From Cloacibacillus porcorum (GTDB taxonomy: Bacteria > Synergistota > Synergistia > Synergistales > Synergistaceae): a DNA stretch of 64,000 bases. The stretch is taken from NCBI RefSeq assembly GCF_001701045.1, contig NZ_CP016757.1:1543501-1607500 (forward strand). Direction: 5' to 3'. The position numbers and the translations under genes are program-made. Under the pieces are notes generated by a model. That model was not told where the DNA came from and searched no databases. It saw only the letters and a list, made by a program, of their open reading frames with translations. Below, piece after piece: positions 30,334 to 48,862 of this stretch; position 1 is the first letter of the stretch, and the number at the start of each line of letters is the position of its first letter.

Positions 30334-31565
30334 TGGAATGGGAAAAATTACCGCTCACAGTGCTTAAATTCGGCGGTTCGTCGGTCGCCGATTCCGATAG
30401 GATGAGGCATGTCGCGCAGATCGTAAAAAAGATCCGCGATAAGGGTTTCCGCGTCGCCGTCGTCGTCTCGGCGATGGGAAACATGACTGATGAGCTGCTG
30501 GCGCTCGCGAGCGACGTCGCGACGGAAAAAGACGGCCGCGAGATGGACCAGCTGCTCGCCACCGGCGAACAGCAGAGCGTGGCGCTGCTGGCGCTCGCGC
30601 TGAAACAGTACGGAATCCCCGCGCAGTCGTTTACCGCCCTCCAGGCCGGCATCAGGGCTAAGGGCTTCCCGATGGAGGGGCGTATCTACCGTATAGAGCC
30701 CGACGCCGTCGAAAAGACGCTAAACGAGGGCTCCGTCGCCGTCATCACCGGCTTTCAGGCGATCACCGACAACGGCGACGTCATCACGCTCGGGCGCGGA
30801 GGCTCCGACCTTTCGGCGGTCGCGCTCGCGGCTTCGCTCGGCGCGGACTCCTGCCAGCTGCTCAAGGACGTCACCGGGATCATGACTGGCGATCCCCGCA
30901 TCGTGAAGAATCCCAAGAAGCTGTCGCAGCTGGGCTTTGACGAGTGCATGGAGATGGCGGTGCAGGGCGCGAAGGTGCTCCAGGCACGCAGCGTCGAGAT
31001 GGCGGCGCGCTATGAAATACCGCTTTATGTCGGTTCAAGCTTTGTGGAAGAGGAGGGTACATGGGTAATGAGCAATCCGGTAACAGAGGGACTTATTATA
31101 AAGGCAGTCATACAGGATATGAAGGTGGCGAAGGTGGTGCTTCTCGGGGTGCCCGATATTCCCGGCATCGCGGCGCGTCTCTTCGCGAACCTCGCGGAGA
31201 GGGGCGTCGGCGCGGAGATGATCATCCAGAACTATATGCGCGGCGGCGTCAACGATATCGGCTTCCTCGTCAAAAAGACGAGTCTCGAGGTCGCGAGCCA
31301 GGTCTGCCGCGAACTCTGCCGCGAGATAGACGCGCAGGGCGTCTCCTTTGATACGGAGATCGCGCGTGTCTCCATCGTCGGCGCGGGCATCGCGAACCAC
31401 CCCGAGATTCCCTCGAAGATGTTTAACATCCTCGCCGAGGCGGGAATAAATATTGAGATGATCGCCTCCACGGCGCTGGCTATCACCTGCGTCGTCGGCA
31501 GTTCACGCGCCGACGACGCGGTACGCGAACTGCACGACCATTTCATCGACGAGGTGGCCTTCTAA
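30333..31565 (+). CDS. lysC: Aspartate kinase (lysine/threonine pathway)
   Basis: The 410-residue enzyme phosphorylates aspartate, the first step toward threonine, methionine, lysine and diaminopimelate. N-terminal VLKFGGSSVAD and TLGRGGSDLSA bind substrate and ATP; two C-terminal ACT domains (about 265-400) suggest allosteric feedback, ligand unknown. ATG 30333 is 8 nt after a G6 run; GTG 30324 is a weaker alternative that overlaps the run. The TAATG junctions on both sides imply coupled translation. Confidence 0.92.
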   Translation: MEWEKLPLTVLKFGGSSVADSDRMRHVAQIVKKIRDKGFRVAVVVSAMGNMTDELLALASDVATEKDGREMDQLLATGEQQSVALLALALKQYGIPAQSFTALQAGIRAKGFPMEGRIYRIEPDAVEKTLNEGSVAVITGFQAITDNGDVITLGRGGSDLSAVALAASLGADSCQLLKDVTGIMTGDPRIVKNPKKLSQLGFDECMEMAVQGAKVLQARSVEMAARYEIPLYVGSSFVEEEGTWVMSNPVTEGLIIKAVIQDMKVAKVVLLGVPDIPGIAARLFANLAERGVGAEMIIQNYMRGGVNDIGFLVKKTSLEVASQVCRELCREIDAQGVSFDTEIARVSIVGAGIANHPEIPSKMFNILAEAGINIEMIASTALAITCVVGSSRADDAVRELHDHFIDEVAF

Positions 31566-32569
31566 TGAGCGGCAGGAGAGTGGCGGTGCTCGGAGCGACG
31601 GGGCTCGTCGGGCGCGAAATGCTCTACACGCTGGAACAGCGTAATTTCCCCGTCTCCGAGCTTATCCCGCTCGCCTCGCCTCGCTCCGCGGGCAAAAAGG
31701 TCGTCTTCAACGGTGAAGAGATAACGGTGCAGGCGGTCGGTGAAGATTCGTTCAAGGGCGTAGACATCGCGCTCTTTTCGGCGGGAGGCAAGACCTCCAA
31801 GCAGTGGGCCCCCGTCGCCGCGGCAAGCGGCGCGGTCGTCATCGACAACAGCTCCGCCTGGCGCATGGACCCCGAAGTGCCGCTCATCGTTCCCGAGATA
31901 AACGCCGCCGACGTCTCAATGGCGAAGAACAAGGGGATCATCGCTAACCCTAACTGTTCGACGATACAGGCGGTCGTCGTCCTCTATCCGCTCCACCAGG
32001 CGGCGGGGCTTAAATACATCAACATCAGCACCTATCAGTCGGTCGCCGGTACCGGCAAAGCGGCGATCGAGTCGCTACGCGACGGCGCGAAGGCGGCGAT
32101 CAAAGGCGAGGAATATAAGGACGACGTCTATCCGCACAGCATCGCCTTCAACCTCCTGCCGCATATCGGGGCGTTCGACGACGAAGGCATCTCCGAGGAG
32201 GAGTGGAAGATGGTCAACGAATCGCGTAAGATCATGCACATACCCGATCTGCGTGTCAGCGGCATCACTGTGCGCGTTCCCATCTTCCGCTGCCACGGCG
32301 AAAGCGTAACGGCGCAGTTTGAGCGTCCTCTCAGCCCCGCGGAGGCGCGCGAGATACTGAGCAGAGCCCCCGGCGTCGTTGTGCGCGACGATCCGAAAAA
32401 CGCTGAATACCCGCTGCCAGTCGATACGGCGGGCAAAGACGACGTCTGCGTCGGCCGCATCAGACGCGACACCGGCCTCGACAACGCGCTCGCGATGTGG
32501 GTCGTCGGCGACAACCTGAGAAAGGGCGCGGCGCTCAACGCGGTGCAGATCGCGGAAAAGCTGGCTTAA
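31565..32569 (+). CDS. asd: Aspartate-semialdehyde dehydrogenase
   Basis: The 334-residue NADPH enzyme reduces aspartyl phosphate to the semialdehyde. GATGLVGREML binds NADP, and the catalytic Cys is in IANPNCST (Cys at about residue 130), with the later GVTVRVP-like GITVRVPIF and substrate HGES. It is the last gene of the thrC-thrB-lysC-asd operon. Homoserine dehydrogenase, the missing step between asd and thrB, is not in the window. A terminator follows at 32607. Confidence 0.94.
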   Translation: MSGRRVAVLGATGLVGREMLYTLEQRNFPVSELIPLASPRSAGKKVVFNGEEITVQAVGEDSFKGVDIALFSAGGKTSKQWAPVAAASGAVVIDNSSAWRMDPEVPLIVPEINAADVSMAKNKGIIANPNCSTIQAVVVLYPLHQAAGLKYINISTYQSVAGTGKAAIESLRDGAKAAIKGEEYKDDVYPHSIAFNLLPHIGAFDDEGISEEEWKMVNESRKIMHIPDLRVSGITVRVPIFRCHGESVTAQFERPLSPAEAREILSRAPGVVVRDDPKNAEYPLPVDTAGKDDVCVGRIRRDTGLDNALAMWVVGDNLRKGAALNAVQIAEKLA

Positions 32570-32606
32570 AATTACACGCCGCAGAATTCAGCCATAGTAA
32601 ACAGAG

Positions 32607-32641
32607 AGTTCGGAGAGGGGATTTTTTCTCTCCGAACTTTT
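32607..32641 (+). terminator. Intrinsic terminator after asd
   Basis: AGTTCGGAGAG (32607-32617) pairs with CTCTCCGAACT (32628-32638), then TTTT. Confidence 0.85.
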
Positions 32642-32721
32642 ACTTTAAAAAAGAACATGGCTGACAAAGAACGGCGAGAGGTTCGGCGGACACTGACATT
32701 AGGTTAAACGTACAACAATGG

Positions 32722-32959
32722 ACAGATAAAGATAAATAGCGATTTAGCTTTCAGCCTGTCGTGGCTAAAGCCGCTGTGTGTCCCTGCCTTGTCGCACCGG
32801 CCTCCGAGCCGGTGCCCAGCGGCTTGCCTTGCTTTTATGCCTTGCCAGACGAGCATAAAACCCCACGACACTAGATTCCGGGTCAAGCCCGGAATGACTG
32901 AATAAAACAAAACTACAATTTATCTCTTTTCCCCTCTCGAAGATAAATCGGCGTTTATA
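32722..32959. repeat. Composite hairpin-rich intergenic element, copy 1
   Basis: The 499-nt gap between asd and the Nif3-like gene holds no gene. From 32722 to 32750 lies an inverted partial copy of a dispersed end-repeat. Next comes a nested structure: TGTCGTGG (32757-32764) pairs with CCACGACA (32863-32870), enclosing one arm AAGCCGCTG/CAGCGGCTT (32768-32776, 32817-32825) capped by CACCGGC/GCCGGTG (32795-32801, 32808-32814), and a second arm TTTTATGC/GCATAAAA (32833-32840, 32853-32860). A palindrome ATTCCGGG-TCAAG-CCCGGAAT follows (32875-32895), then a direct-orientation end-repeat at 32916-32959. It resembles a non-autonomous repeat element; transcription is unknown. The remaining bases 32960-33068 show nothing clear. 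Confidence 0.7.
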
Positions 32960-33068
32960 CGCACGTCCAGCTTTCGCTGATGCGTCTGCCCTGCTCCGGT
33001 GCATTTTGCTTTGACGTTACCCCTCGGCTGTTATACAATTATTCGATGTAACGAAACGGGGTGCTGGA

Positions 33069-33854
33069 ATGAAACTTTCTGAGATAATAGCCAGAATAGA
33101 AAAGAGAATACCGAAGAGCTGGGCGGAATCGTGGGATAATCCTGGCCTTGCCGTGGGCGACCCACGAGCGGAGATAGACGGTATCGCCCTCTCGCTTGAC
33201 GCGACCGCGGATACGGCATCCGCCGCCTCCGCGCTGGGCTGCGGCCTGCTCGTGACGCACCATCCGCTTATATTTCATCCGCTGAAATCGGTGGTGAACG
33301 ACAGCTACGTCGGACGGACGGTCTTCTCCGCGATCCGCGGCGGTGTCGCGATATACTCTGCGCATACCAACTGGGATTCGTCGCCCGAGGGCGTGAACTT
33401 TGTCCTCGCCTTGCTGCTGGGGCTTGAGAATATTGCGCCGCTGTCGCCCTCTGAGTCGGGCGCGTGGGGGATGGGGGCTATCGGAGAGCTTACCGTTCCC
33501 ATTAGGCTCGGTGAACTTTCGGATATCCTGCGCGAGCGGTGGCGTCTCGCCAATTTTACCGTTTACGGCGACGTGGAACGGCTGCTGGGAAGGATCGCGC
33601 TCGGCGGCGGCGCCTGTCAGGAATTCTGGCCCGAGGCGCTCTCCCTGGGAGCGGACTGTTTCATCACCTCCGATATCGCCTACCACCACCGCCAGGAGGC
33701 GCTCGACGCGGGACTGTCTCTCGTGAGCACCGACCACGGCGAGATGGAACGGGCCTCTTTGCCGGCGCTGCGGACCGTCATCGAATGCGAGACGGGACTT
33801 CCCGTCCGGCTGATAGAGGAAAAGAACGCTCCCTTTACGCACGGGCGCGTATAG
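33069..33854 (+). CDS. Nif3-like dinuclear metal-centre protein
   Basis: The 261-residue protein belongs to the Nif3/YbgI (GTP cyclohydrolase 1 type 2-like) family. Metal ligands are seen in THHPLIFHP, SAHTNWD and STDHGEME, with the ESWDNPGLAVGD N-terminal signature. Function across the family is unsettled; proposals include GTP cyclohydrolase and metal-dependent hydrolase or chaperone roles. It is 61 nt upstream of trpS and may be cotranscribed. Confidence 0.88.
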   Translation: MKLSEIIARIEKRIPKSWAESWDNPGLAVGDPRAEIDGIALSLDATADTASAASALGCGLLVTHHPLIFHPLKSVVNDSYVGRTVFSAIRGGVAIYSAHTNWDSSPEGVNFVLALLLGLENIAPLSPSESGAWGMGAIGELTVPIRLGELSDILRERWRLANFTVYGDVERLLGRIALGGGACQEFWPEALSLGADCFITSDIAYHHRQEALDAGLSLVSTDHGEMERASLPALRTVIECETGLPVRLIEEKNAPFTHGRV

Positions 33855-40524: not shown

Positions 40525-40599
40525 GGGCGGGTAGCTCAGCGGGAGAGCATCTGCCTTACACGCAGAGGGTCGTAGGTTCGAAACCTATCCCGCCCACCA
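40525..40599 (+). tRNA. tRNA-Val (anticodon TAC)
   Basis: Cloverleaf with acceptor GGGCGGG/CCCGCCC, anticodon loop CTTACAC, normal T-loop TTCGAAA and encoded CCA. Confidence 0.96.
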
Positions 40600-40613
40600 T
40601 ATGACAACAAAGT

Positions 40614-40690
<77 letters not shown>

Positions 40691-40715
40691 CTTTAAATAT
40701 TTTCGCCACTGAGAT

Positions 40716-40791
<76 letters not shown>

Positions 40792-40809
40792 TAAGTAACG
40801 AGAGTAGAG

Positions 40810-40884
40810 GCGGAAGTAGCTCAGGGGTAGAGCACAACCTTGCCAAGGTTGGGGTCGCGGGTCCGAATCCCGTCTTCCGCTCCA
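40810..40884 (+). tRNA. tRNA-Gly (anticodon GCC), copy 1, with C at T-loop position 55
   Basis: Acceptor GCGGAAG/CTTCCGC, anticodon loop TTGCCAA, encoded CCA. The T-loop reads TCCGAAT (40862-40868) instead of TTCGAAT in the second copy, so the near-universal U55 is C. It may be a weakened or decaying copy. Confidence 0.9.
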
Positions 40885-40923
40885 AATTATGTCAGCAGGC
40901 ATGACGCATCAGAGCAGCAAAGT

Positions 40924-41000
<77 letters not shown>

Positions 41001-41023
41001 CTTTAAAGATTCGCCGCTGAGAT

Positions 41024-41099
<76 letters not shown>

Positions 41100-41125
41100 C
41101 TAAAAAATAAATATTGAGTAACAAT

Positions 41126-41200
41126 GCGGAAGTAGCTCAGGGGTAGAGCACAACCTTGCCAAGGTTGGGGTCGCGGGTTCGAATCCCGTCTTCCGCTCCA
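41126..41200 (+). tRNA. tRNA-Gly (anticodon GCC), copy 2
   Basis: Normal T-loop TTCGAAT and encoded CCA; followed at once by TTTTTTT, which may end transcription of the array. Confidence 0.96.
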
Positions 41201-46961: not shown

Positions 46962-47003
46962 TATAAACGCTGATTTCCTTCGGGTGGGGGAAGAGATAAA
47001 TTG
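46962..47003 (-). repeat. Dispersed end-repeat, copy B (left end of the element split by the IS)
   Basis: Read on the minus strand it gives CAATTTATCTCTTCCCC, then ACCCGAAGGAAATCAGCG and TTTATA, matching copies at 32916 and 48697. It lies 31 nt from the IS3 right end and is inverted relative to the copy at 48697. Confidence 0.8.
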
Positions 47004-47090
47004 CGATTTACCAAAGATTTTGGCGCCCTCTTTTGAACAGAGTCCCGCAAACCGGACAACGCTATAAAAGCTCCCAAGGGTATCAAAAAT

Positions 47091-47963
47091 TTATTCAATA
47101 AAGAGACTTCGATATTGCATCGGAGCCTTTTTCAATTTTATCTGTATCCTGTCGTTATTATAATACCTTATATATTCGTCTATGGCATCTTTGGCCTCCT
47201 CGTAGTTCTCCCATTTTACTCGGTTGACGAGTTCTGATTTAATGTGACTAAAGAAGTTTTCTGCACATGCATTATCCAAACAATTTCCTTTCCTTGACAT
47301 TGAGACCTTGAGTCCGTATCTTTGTGTCAGGTTGAAATATGCATGGCTTGTATATTGAAACCCCTGGTCGCTGTGGAGGATTGGTCCATCAGCGACCACC
47401 TTATTATTATTTTCAAATGCTTTCTTCAATGTATCGGTTACTAACTTAATATTATTATTACGACTGATTTGATATCCCTGTATGGAATTATCAAAGAGAT
47501 CTTTTATCATGGAGAGGAATATATTACCCTTTTTTGTTCGTATATATGTGATATCAGTAACCAGTTTCTGGTTTGGTCTGTCGGAACGAAATTCTCTGTT
47601 CAGGATATTCTCATAGCTGTGGATATTTCCTGACATCACTTTAAACTTTTTCTTTTTTCTTATTTCCGCTTGAAGTCCCGCTTTTTTCATAACACGCCTT
47701 ACCCTCTTATTGTTTACATGAATGCCAATGAAGTTGTTGAGCCACAGAGTCATTCGCCTGTACCCATAAGTGTTTTTGTTGATATTCTGTCCCGTTCTTA
47801 TTGCTTCTATGAGAGGACCGTCTTTATCTTTCATTCCACGCCGCTTTAGCCAACTGTAGTATGCGGAGCGTGATACGGACAAAAATCTACACATTCCACA
47901 GACAGAATGTTTTGTTGAAAATTCAAAAATGATCCTGTATTTAATATTTCTTTCTATCACCAC
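47091..47963 (-). CDS. IS3-family transposase OrfB (DDE integrase domain)
   Basis: The 290-residue protein has a helical HTH_21-like N-terminus and an rve integrase core. Catalytic Asp residues are in VTDITY and HSDQGFQYT and the Glu in CAENFFSHIKSE, in the IS3 DDE arrangement. It is normally made as an OrfAB fusion by -1 frameshifting in the overlap; on its own the start would be GTG. Confidence 0.93.
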   Translation of the reverse strand: MVIERNIKYRIIFEFSTKHSVCGMCRFLSVSRSAYYSWLKRRGMKDKDGPLIEAIRTGQNINKNTYGYRRMTLWLNNFIGIHVNNKRVRRVMKKAGLQAEIRKKKKFKVMSGNIHSYENILNREFRSDRPNQKLVTDITYIRTKKGNIFLSMIKDLFDNSIQGYQISRNNNIKLVTDTLKKAFENNNKVVADGPILHSDQGFQYTSHAYFNLTQRYGLKVSMSRKGNCLDNACAENFFSHIKSELVNRVKWENYEEAKDAIDEYIRYYNNDRIQIKLKKAPMQYRSLFIE

Positions 47964-48400
47964 CTTTGCAGCTCTAAGGCTTTTTTTAATACGTCGACCT
48001 GCATTTCCAGCTCTTTAATCTTTTCTATGCTATTTGTAACTTCCAATTTCTTATCTGGACAGTCTTGTTTTGAACTAGAAATATCCCCTTGTTCGATAAA
48101 TTCCTTACACCATCGTCTTAAAAGAGAGGGACTTGAAATGTTAAAAGATGAGGTAACATCTACCATAGTACGTCCCTCTTCTAAATGAGCCGAAACAGCT
48201 TCAAGTTTTACAGCCTTGCTGTAGGTTCTTTTTTTCCTTGTATCATCCAGTAAGTCCTTCTGTCCGCTCTTATATAAAGATATCCATGTTTTAACAGAAT
48301 CAGGACTAACACCAAGTTCTTCAGCAATCCGCCTTCGTGGAATTCCCTGTTTGTGCATCTCAATTGCTCTTATTCTTTCTTCTGTTTTACGTTTACGCAT
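47957..48400 (-). CDS. IS3-family transposase OrfA (DNA-binding)
   Basis: The 147-residue protein has two helix-turn-helix units (IPRRRIAEELGVSPDSVKTWI and TMVDVTSSFNISSPSLLRRW) and a C-terminal leucine-zipper-like segment (IEKIKELEMQVDVLKKALEL). Near the end the codons TTA AAA AAA (A7 at 47981-47987) make an A-AAA-AAA slippery site; a -1 slip joins the frame of OrfB, giving the active OrfAB transposase. Slippage is inferred from family behaviour. The ATG follows AGGGGGATC. Confidence 0.9.
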   Translation of the reverse strand: MRKRKTEERIRAIEMHKQGIPRRRIAEELGVSPDSVKTWISLYKSGQKDLLDDTRKKRTYSKAVKLEAVSAHLEEGRTMVDVTSSFNISSPSLLRRWCKEFIEQGDISSSKQDCPDKKLEVTNSIEKIKELEMQVDVLKKALELQRW

Positions 48401-48482: not shown

Positions 48483-48862
48483 TTTGAGGGAGCTCCCCGC
48501 GAAGCGGGGTGAGGGAGAGTTGACCTTAGGTTCTCCCGTGGCCTTTGCCGCGGGCTCTGTATGGCGCGGGAACCGCGCCATACAGAGCAACACTCCTTCC
48601 GTCTCGCCGCAAAAGCGGCGGCGATCCACCTTCCTCATAGAGGAAGGCTTTAAGAAAAAACTTCCGTTTATCATCGATAGGGTAAAAGCTAAACAGCAAT
48701 TTATCTGTTTTCCCACCCGAAGGAAATCGGCGTTTAGAAGTGCGAGTTGCTAAATAAAATGGTGGTTCCGATACCGGAGCCGTATTAGCATACGGCGAGG
48801 ATTCGGAACCACCGTTTTATGACGCAAATCGTGCTTATAAACGCCGATTTAGCTTTTGACCC
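48483..48862. repeat. Composite hairpin-rich intergenic element, copy 2 (right part)
   Basis: The gap holds no gene; an 89-codon frame here is a product of the repeats. Perfect hairpins follow one another: CCCCGC-GAA-GCGGGG (48495-48509), a 15-bp stem GCTCTGTATGGCGCG/CGCGCCATACAGAGC (48554-48588), CCTTCCTC-ATA-GAGGAAGG (48629-48647), and GGTGGTTCCGA/TCGGAACCACC (48761-48813) with an inner GCCGTAT/ATACGGC. An end-repeat is at 48697-48736 and a shortened inverted one at about 48836-48862. With copy B at 46962 it looks like one element interrupted by the IS. Confidence 0.7.
48697..48736 (+). repeat. Dispersed end-repeat, copy C
   Basis: CAATTTATCTGTTTTCCCA, then CCCGAAGGAAATCGGCG and TTTA. Preceded by GGTAAAAGCTAAACAG, which recurs inverted near 48845. 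Confidence 0.8.

Follow-up and report, generated by a model that had tools for sequence, protein, structure and literature searches.

The window, a stretch of 64,000 nucleotides, corresponds to positions 1543501-1607500 of C1, the single contig that makes up the 3.585-Mb genome of Cloacibacillus porcorum (G000); the sister species used for comparison is designated G001. The feature under study, 238 bp long, is intergenic and lies between a gene that we take to be asd and another that is presumably Nif3-like. The nearest named relatives of this asd are from Synergistaceae, the top match being a Synergistes metagenome-assembled genome (MAG) at 88%. A terminator-like hairpin follows asd and a promoter-like site, the sole match where 0.6 are expected in shuffles, lies beyond the element, so that the gap that contains the element need not be transcribed. 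The features of the region are as follows.

31565-32569, + strand: upstream neighbor, presumed asd
32598-32617 and 32628-32647: arms of the terminator-like hairpin after asd
32700-32716, + strand: candidate left terminal repeat, very degenerate, 10/17 to CAGGGCAAACGCRTCAA; 66.7% of shuffled stretches do equally well
32722-32959: feature under study
32733-32746, no strand: END unit 1, TAAATAGCGATTTA, a dispersed 14-bp near-palindrome (END = TAAATNGCNATTTA)
32766-32790, no strand: left flank of the REP pair, 33 bp after END 1, including one strand of the first arm
32791-32819, + strand: REP 1, B type, GTCG-CACCGGC-CTCCGA-GCCGGTG-CCCAG
32820-32870, no strand: inter-REP spacer, including the nonconserved second arm
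32871-32898, - strand: REP 2, C type, reverse strand GTCATTCCGGGCTTGACCCGGAATCTAG
32909-32922, no strand: END unit 3, degenerate, AAAACTACAATTTA, 4 mismatches to TAAATCGCAATTTA
32944-32964, + strand: left end of a D element, TAAATCGGCGTTTATACGCAC; the remainder of the 126-bp hairpin element is gone
32977-32993, - strand: right terminal repeat, ISAs1-MITE type, CTGATGCGTCTGCCCTG, 15/17
33011-33039: promoter-like site TTGACG-17-TACAAT, downstream of the element and before the Nif3-like gene
33069-33854, + strand: downstream neighbor, presumed Nif3-like gene

The initial annotation described a nested, cloverleaf-like fold, and all of its parts are present in the sequence: an outer 8-bp stem TGTCGTGG/CCACGACA (32757-32764 with 32863-32870), a first arm AAGCCGCTG/CAGCGGCTT around the inner hairpin CACCGG..CCGGTG, a second arm TTTTATGC/GCATAAAA, and a palindrome, ATTCCGGGTCAAGCCCGGAAT. 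The minimum free energy fold is also more stable than that of shuffled sequence (z = -4.2 and -4.0 on the two strands), none of 200 shuffles being as stable. Conservation of the cloverleaf is another matter. In an alignment (A2) of the eight C. porcorum copies with a readable left flank (omitting L006, L009, L010, L014, L021, and L139, and with L004 represented by REP 1 alone), the proportion of paired cells is 35.9% for the outer stem (36.4% in shuffles), 39.3% for the second arm (40.0%), and 64.7% for the first arm (63.6%). None of these is clearly above the shuffles, and the cloverleaf is thus peculiar to the window copy; a fold predicted from a single repeat copy may look elaborate yet lack conservation.

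A Covarying Pair of REP Hairpins

Two hairpins within the element are conserved. In an alignment (A1) of 23 of the 27 neighbor pairs found in the two species (ten from C. porcorum and 13 from G001; the second L005 pair, L006, and two further L112 pairs were omitted), 97.3% of hairpin cells are paired, and the 20 compensatory cells compare with 3.9 in shuffles. The covariation check proposed with the initial annotation therefore comes out in favor of these two hairpins and against the cloverleaf stems. The two units are inverted relative to each other and each folds; the tail-to-tail stem that would join them is paired in 70.3% of cells and shows no covariation. Twenty-three of the 27 neighbor pairs, in both species, are arranged head to head as a B/C heterodimer with one REP of each type.

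Each REP consists of a tag with GTC(A/G), a stem of 7-9 bp, a short loop (of the CTCCGA or CTTGA type), and a CCAG-like tail. With its tag, REP 1 reads TGTCG-CACCGG..CCGGTG-CCCAG; REP 2, on the reverse strand, reads AGTCATTCCGGG..CCCGGAATCTAG and has the tag AGTC in the window copy and TGTC or CGTC in most others. CGTC-type REPs are defined in PMC3733652 as short palindromes with a CGTC (often TGTC or CCTC) tag at one end and a CCA-like tail. Both hairpins are CGTC-type REPs, agreeing with this class in tag and tail, in copy number, and in head-to-head arrangement.

Dispersed copies, which the initial annotation had suggested counting, do exist: BLAST finds 52 matches across the C. porcorum genome. 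A covariance model of the pair gives, at 38 bits or more, at least 17 entries in C. porcorum (16 sites, because entries 1321280 and 1321372 overlap) and at least 33 in G001, counts that are lower bounds with strands merged, the scoring having covered 150 first-look candidates in each genome, out of 1648 and 1770, respectively. The window copy, at 98.4 bits, ranks seventh in its genome among the entries scored. The same model places REP pairs in at least 15 of 80 genomes, or at least 15 of the 48 from the family (five genera), and in none of the 32 from other families of the order, among 46 first-look candidates scored per genome. The copies read in G044 and G014 have stems with CGCG, not CCGG, on both sides, and the two loop types are kept. 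A search of plasmids with REP 2 returned one weak match.

A stable fold on both strands and covarying hairpins might also be expected of a structured RNA, which the initial annotation had offered as an alternative, or of a terminator or attenuator serving asd or the Nif3-like gene. Against such a role, covariation is confined to the REP hairpins and the cloverleaf stems are not conserved, there is no Rfam match at the locus, the element sits between the terminator-like hairpin and the promoter-like site, and the REP-pair unit recurs at dozens of other loci. We regard an RNA function as very improbable.

The REP pair could instead be mobile in its own right, as a REPIN whose RAYT has since been lost, and reside in END-rich landing sites. 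The inverted arrangement with preserved hairpins, the fixation of the B+C heterodimer in both species, and the occurrence of REP pairs in four further genera of the family would all fit this model, but no RAYT (NF047646) scores above the cut-off in G000 or G001, and the lone Y1_Tnp gene, of IS200 type, lies away from the REPs. Five genomes with REP pairs (G000, G001, G007, G014, and G015) have no RAYT above the cut-off. G008, the only genome of the RAYT set with both a RAYT above the cut-off and REP pairs, has two RAYT loci without a nearby CGTC REP (best match at least 11 mismatches). Neither the RAYT searches nor the G008 loci thus support a RAYT as the mover, and we consider an autonomous REPIN history of this kind unlikely.

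END Palindromes, ISAs1-Type Ends, and D Elements

The REP pair is set within other dispersed repeats. The END pattern TAAATHGCNRTTTA has 42+51 strand matches in C. porcorum and 43+34 in G001, with none in the control; a perfect palindrome scores on both strands. END units are often 33 bp apart (e.g., 2446627/2446660 and 1991496/1991529), and the left flank at 32766-32790 is possibly a worn END unit. Flanks were surveyed for the 28 of 50 model entries that score 65 bits or more ("strong" pairs). In 27 of these 28 an END lies within approximately 70 bp of the pair on one or both sides, 20 having one on both; the chance expectation is about 0.9% per side. An ISAs1-type end (the terminal 17-mer with at most four mismatches, in the right direction) lies within 250 bp of 11 of the strong pairs (chance 1.4% per side), 17 having no recognizable end of this type within that distance, and a D end (at most one mismatch) likewise lies within 250 bp of 11, with 0 of 3000 in a control that allowed up to two mismatches.

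The "inverted copies of a dispersed end-repeat" of the initial annotation therefore survive as dispersed END copies on either side of the REP pair, whereas the word "inverted" says little, END itself being near-palindromic. The boundaries need revision, since the right limit at 32959 falls within the D fragment and leaves out the terminal repeat (32977-32993). Frames made of END and ISAs1-type MITE ends also exist without a REP pair. Conversely, REP pairs occur in four other genera in which no END frame was seen by eye in the few flanks read, which indicates that the REPs have an additional, separate history. A CodY box was considered for the AT-rich palindrome and rejected, because the Synergistes/Cloacibacillus consensus published in PMC9318921 differs.

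At the window copy, the right ISAs1-type end matches at 15/17, and the left candidate, whose best match is 10/17, is at chance level. The shuffles used for this comparison preserve base composition alone. No target duplication was found around the window copy (best 6/10).

The D element is a 126-bp dispersed hairpin with ends TAAATCGGCGTTTA / TAAACGCCGATTTA, seen in the window as a copy at 48724-48850 and as the remnant at 32944-32964. Its ends have 64+64 matches in the C. porcorum genome, and 46 distinct copies are present among the loci read in that genome and G001. Thirty-four are exactly 126 bp long, and in these a set of 44 pairs reaches 97.6% paired cells, 24 pairs showing compensatory change; the stems fall into several sequence types and the ends are constant. 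In an uncontrolled tally, 21 of 92 D ends fall within -9 to +2 of the stop codon that closes an open frame at least 150 codons long, and the TAA of the element can itself serve as a stop. At L182 (2668700-2670500 of C. porcorum), D elements are interrupted by one more palindromic module (ATGTCCCCGCC...). Elsewhere in the window, two minus-strand ORFs (47091-48400) that we take to be an IS3-type transposase are flanked by END/D repeats (46964-47010 and 48690-48851), and seven tRNA genes are clustered at 40525-41197, where two pairs score identically and may be duplicates.

Proposed Movement and Turnover of the Composite

A search of 60 genomes with the terminal 17-mer found pairs of ends approximately 1.3 kb apart in G001. 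These elements encode a 375-amino-acid ISAs1-family transposase (NF033564, E = 3.8e-126; Pfam DDE_Tnp_1, E = 3e-25); in L268 it occupies 152-1279 on the - strand. G001 has seven transposase matches, of which several are pieces of one broken copy and two are full-length and identical; the C. porcorum genome has none at 1e-20. Four insertion sequence copies in G001 have these ends, three of 1295-1297 bp and one of 1240 bp, and are flanked by 10-bp target duplications (10/10 at L267, L268, and L272; 9/10 at L269). Duplications of 10/10 also flank the G001 composites L270 and L271, and among C. porcorum elements they are found at L141 (10/10), at L009, L313, and L317 (9/10), and at L145 (8/10). 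A duplication of 8/10 or better has a chance of 6e-4 per pair and was seen for five of 41 candidate end pairs in C. porcorum, six of 62 in G001, and none of six in G043, many of these candidates being overlapping or due to chance. G043, from another genus of the same family, has 21 terminal-17-mer matches (L273-L275), including short paired elements without 10-bp duplications.

L009 carries a REP pair, with a worn REP 1, between both ISAs1-type ends and within a 9/10 duplication. It is the sole REP-bearing composite of this kind, and it suggests that frame and REP core probably travelled together in at least one case. In L270, L271, and L313 the core is palindromic but of another kind. Another composite with ISAs1-type ends, L277 (G001:C1:450400-453300), has a palindromic core containing intron-like sequence, which to us resembles the start of a group II intron.

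We consider it probable that the window feature is a decayed, non-autonomous MITE frame of ISAs1 type with a CGTC REP pair as its core, acting as DNA. In this model, ISAs1-type ends (CAGGGCAAACGCRTCAA) would bound the outer frame, a MITE, with END palindromes lying inside them, and the head-to-head CGTC-type REP palindromes would form the core of an element that works, or once worked, at the DNA level. An ISAs1-family transposase supplied in trans would recognize the ends and move frame and core together, each move generating a 10-bp target duplication, and the REP hairpins would be retained as stem-loops. The window copy appears to have arrived by such transposition and to be immobile now. 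The unit recurs at no fewer than 16 C. porcorum sites and 33 or more G001 entries, and once at the same gene in both species.

The proposal in the initial annotation of a non-autonomous mobile element is accordingly supported for the family, by its many copies, its genus-specific framing, its ISAs1-type ends, the duplications around siblings, and the autonomous element in the sister species. For the window copy it fares less well: the suggested look for target duplications found none, the boundaries were misplaced, and the cloverleaf is not the conserved part. Because the left end of this copy is unrecognizable and it has no target duplication, its reading rests on its relatives; these two points, and the dependence on L009 as the one composite that has both a REP pair and a near-perfect duplication, are the weakest links in the argument.

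The same Nif3-like gene is also preceded by a REP pair in G001 (L126/L221). Each end of that copy is worn, at 5 mismatches apiece, and asd lies approximately 12 kb away in that genome. The shared site and worn ends indicate that the insertion probably predates the split between the two species. The REP-pair spacers at this locus differ between the species, the G001 copy having a G001-type spacer, and the core has probably diverged or been replaced since the split.

These different spacers would also fit a model in which the frames (END, D, and ISAs1-type ends) are resident in intergenic regions and cores are exchanged among them by homologous recombination or gene conversion. Between the same convergent gene pair, L116 (G001) and L029 (G000) have a D-END-core-END-D cassette that carries a REP pair in one genome and another palindromic module in the other, with the D stem types swapped left to right; the two loci look as if the cassette had been inverted or exchanged. 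Cores also differ at L118/L160 and L123/L151. Such exchange accounts for turnover but not for first arrival, and the composites with perfect 10-bp duplications point to transposition of whole units, so that we think it quite unlikely as the full explanation. Core exchange by recombination is likely to be a later process, compatible with transposition of a MITE frame carrying a REP core.

We tentatively suggest, as one possible course of events, that CGTC-type REPs, for which no transposase is known, spread in the genus as passengers or exchangeable cores of ISAs1-type MITE frames, an ISAs1 transposase taking them in trans to new locations. END and D palindromes would later be the points at which resident frames exchange them for other palindromic cores, orthologous intergenic sites keeping the frame and changing the core. 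A genus whose MITE frames hold REP pairs, and in which one species has the matching transposase and the other lacks it, would offer a testable route of hitchhiking and core exchange.

Relation to Known Elements

The kinds of components described here are known; what is new is their combination and its bearing on the spread of CGTC REPs. Our literature search found no paper joining "miniature inverted-repeat transposable" with "Synergistetes," which is not proof of absence from print. Like an ISAs1-family MITE, the composite is short and has ISAs1 ends, with 10-bp duplications in sibling copies and a transposase (NF033564) in the sister species; it differs in having nested palindromic repeats as its core and, in the window copy, in being worn to the point that the left end is unrecognizable. 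BIMEs and TIMEs are likewise mosaic, non-coding mobile units, but their ends and transposase families differ from those of the composite.

REPINs, as presented by Bertels and Rainey 2011 (PMC3116915), resemble the core described here in consisting of two inverted REPs that form hairpins. Here, however, the tag is GTC(A/G) rather than GTAG, and no RAYT scores above the cut-off in C. porcorum or its sister.

There is also a close likeness to the CGTC REPs and their head-to-head dimers (Di Nocera et al. 2013; PMC3733652), a widespread class that includes dRS3 of Neisseria and RPE-4 and RPE-6 of Rickettsia; neither Synergistetes nor Cloacibacillus occurs in the main text of that paper. That paper left their mode of movement open, having found no transposase gene with such REPs on its flanks. 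As here, those REPs have a GTC tag, a 7-9 bp stem, a short loop, and a CCA-like tail, and form intergenic head-to-head heterodimers with a 20-100 bp spacer and no dedicated transposase. The CGTC-1 dimers of H. neapolitanus likewise lie inside palindromes; the dimers described here differ from the published REPs in sitting within both END palindromes and ISAs1-type MITE frames.
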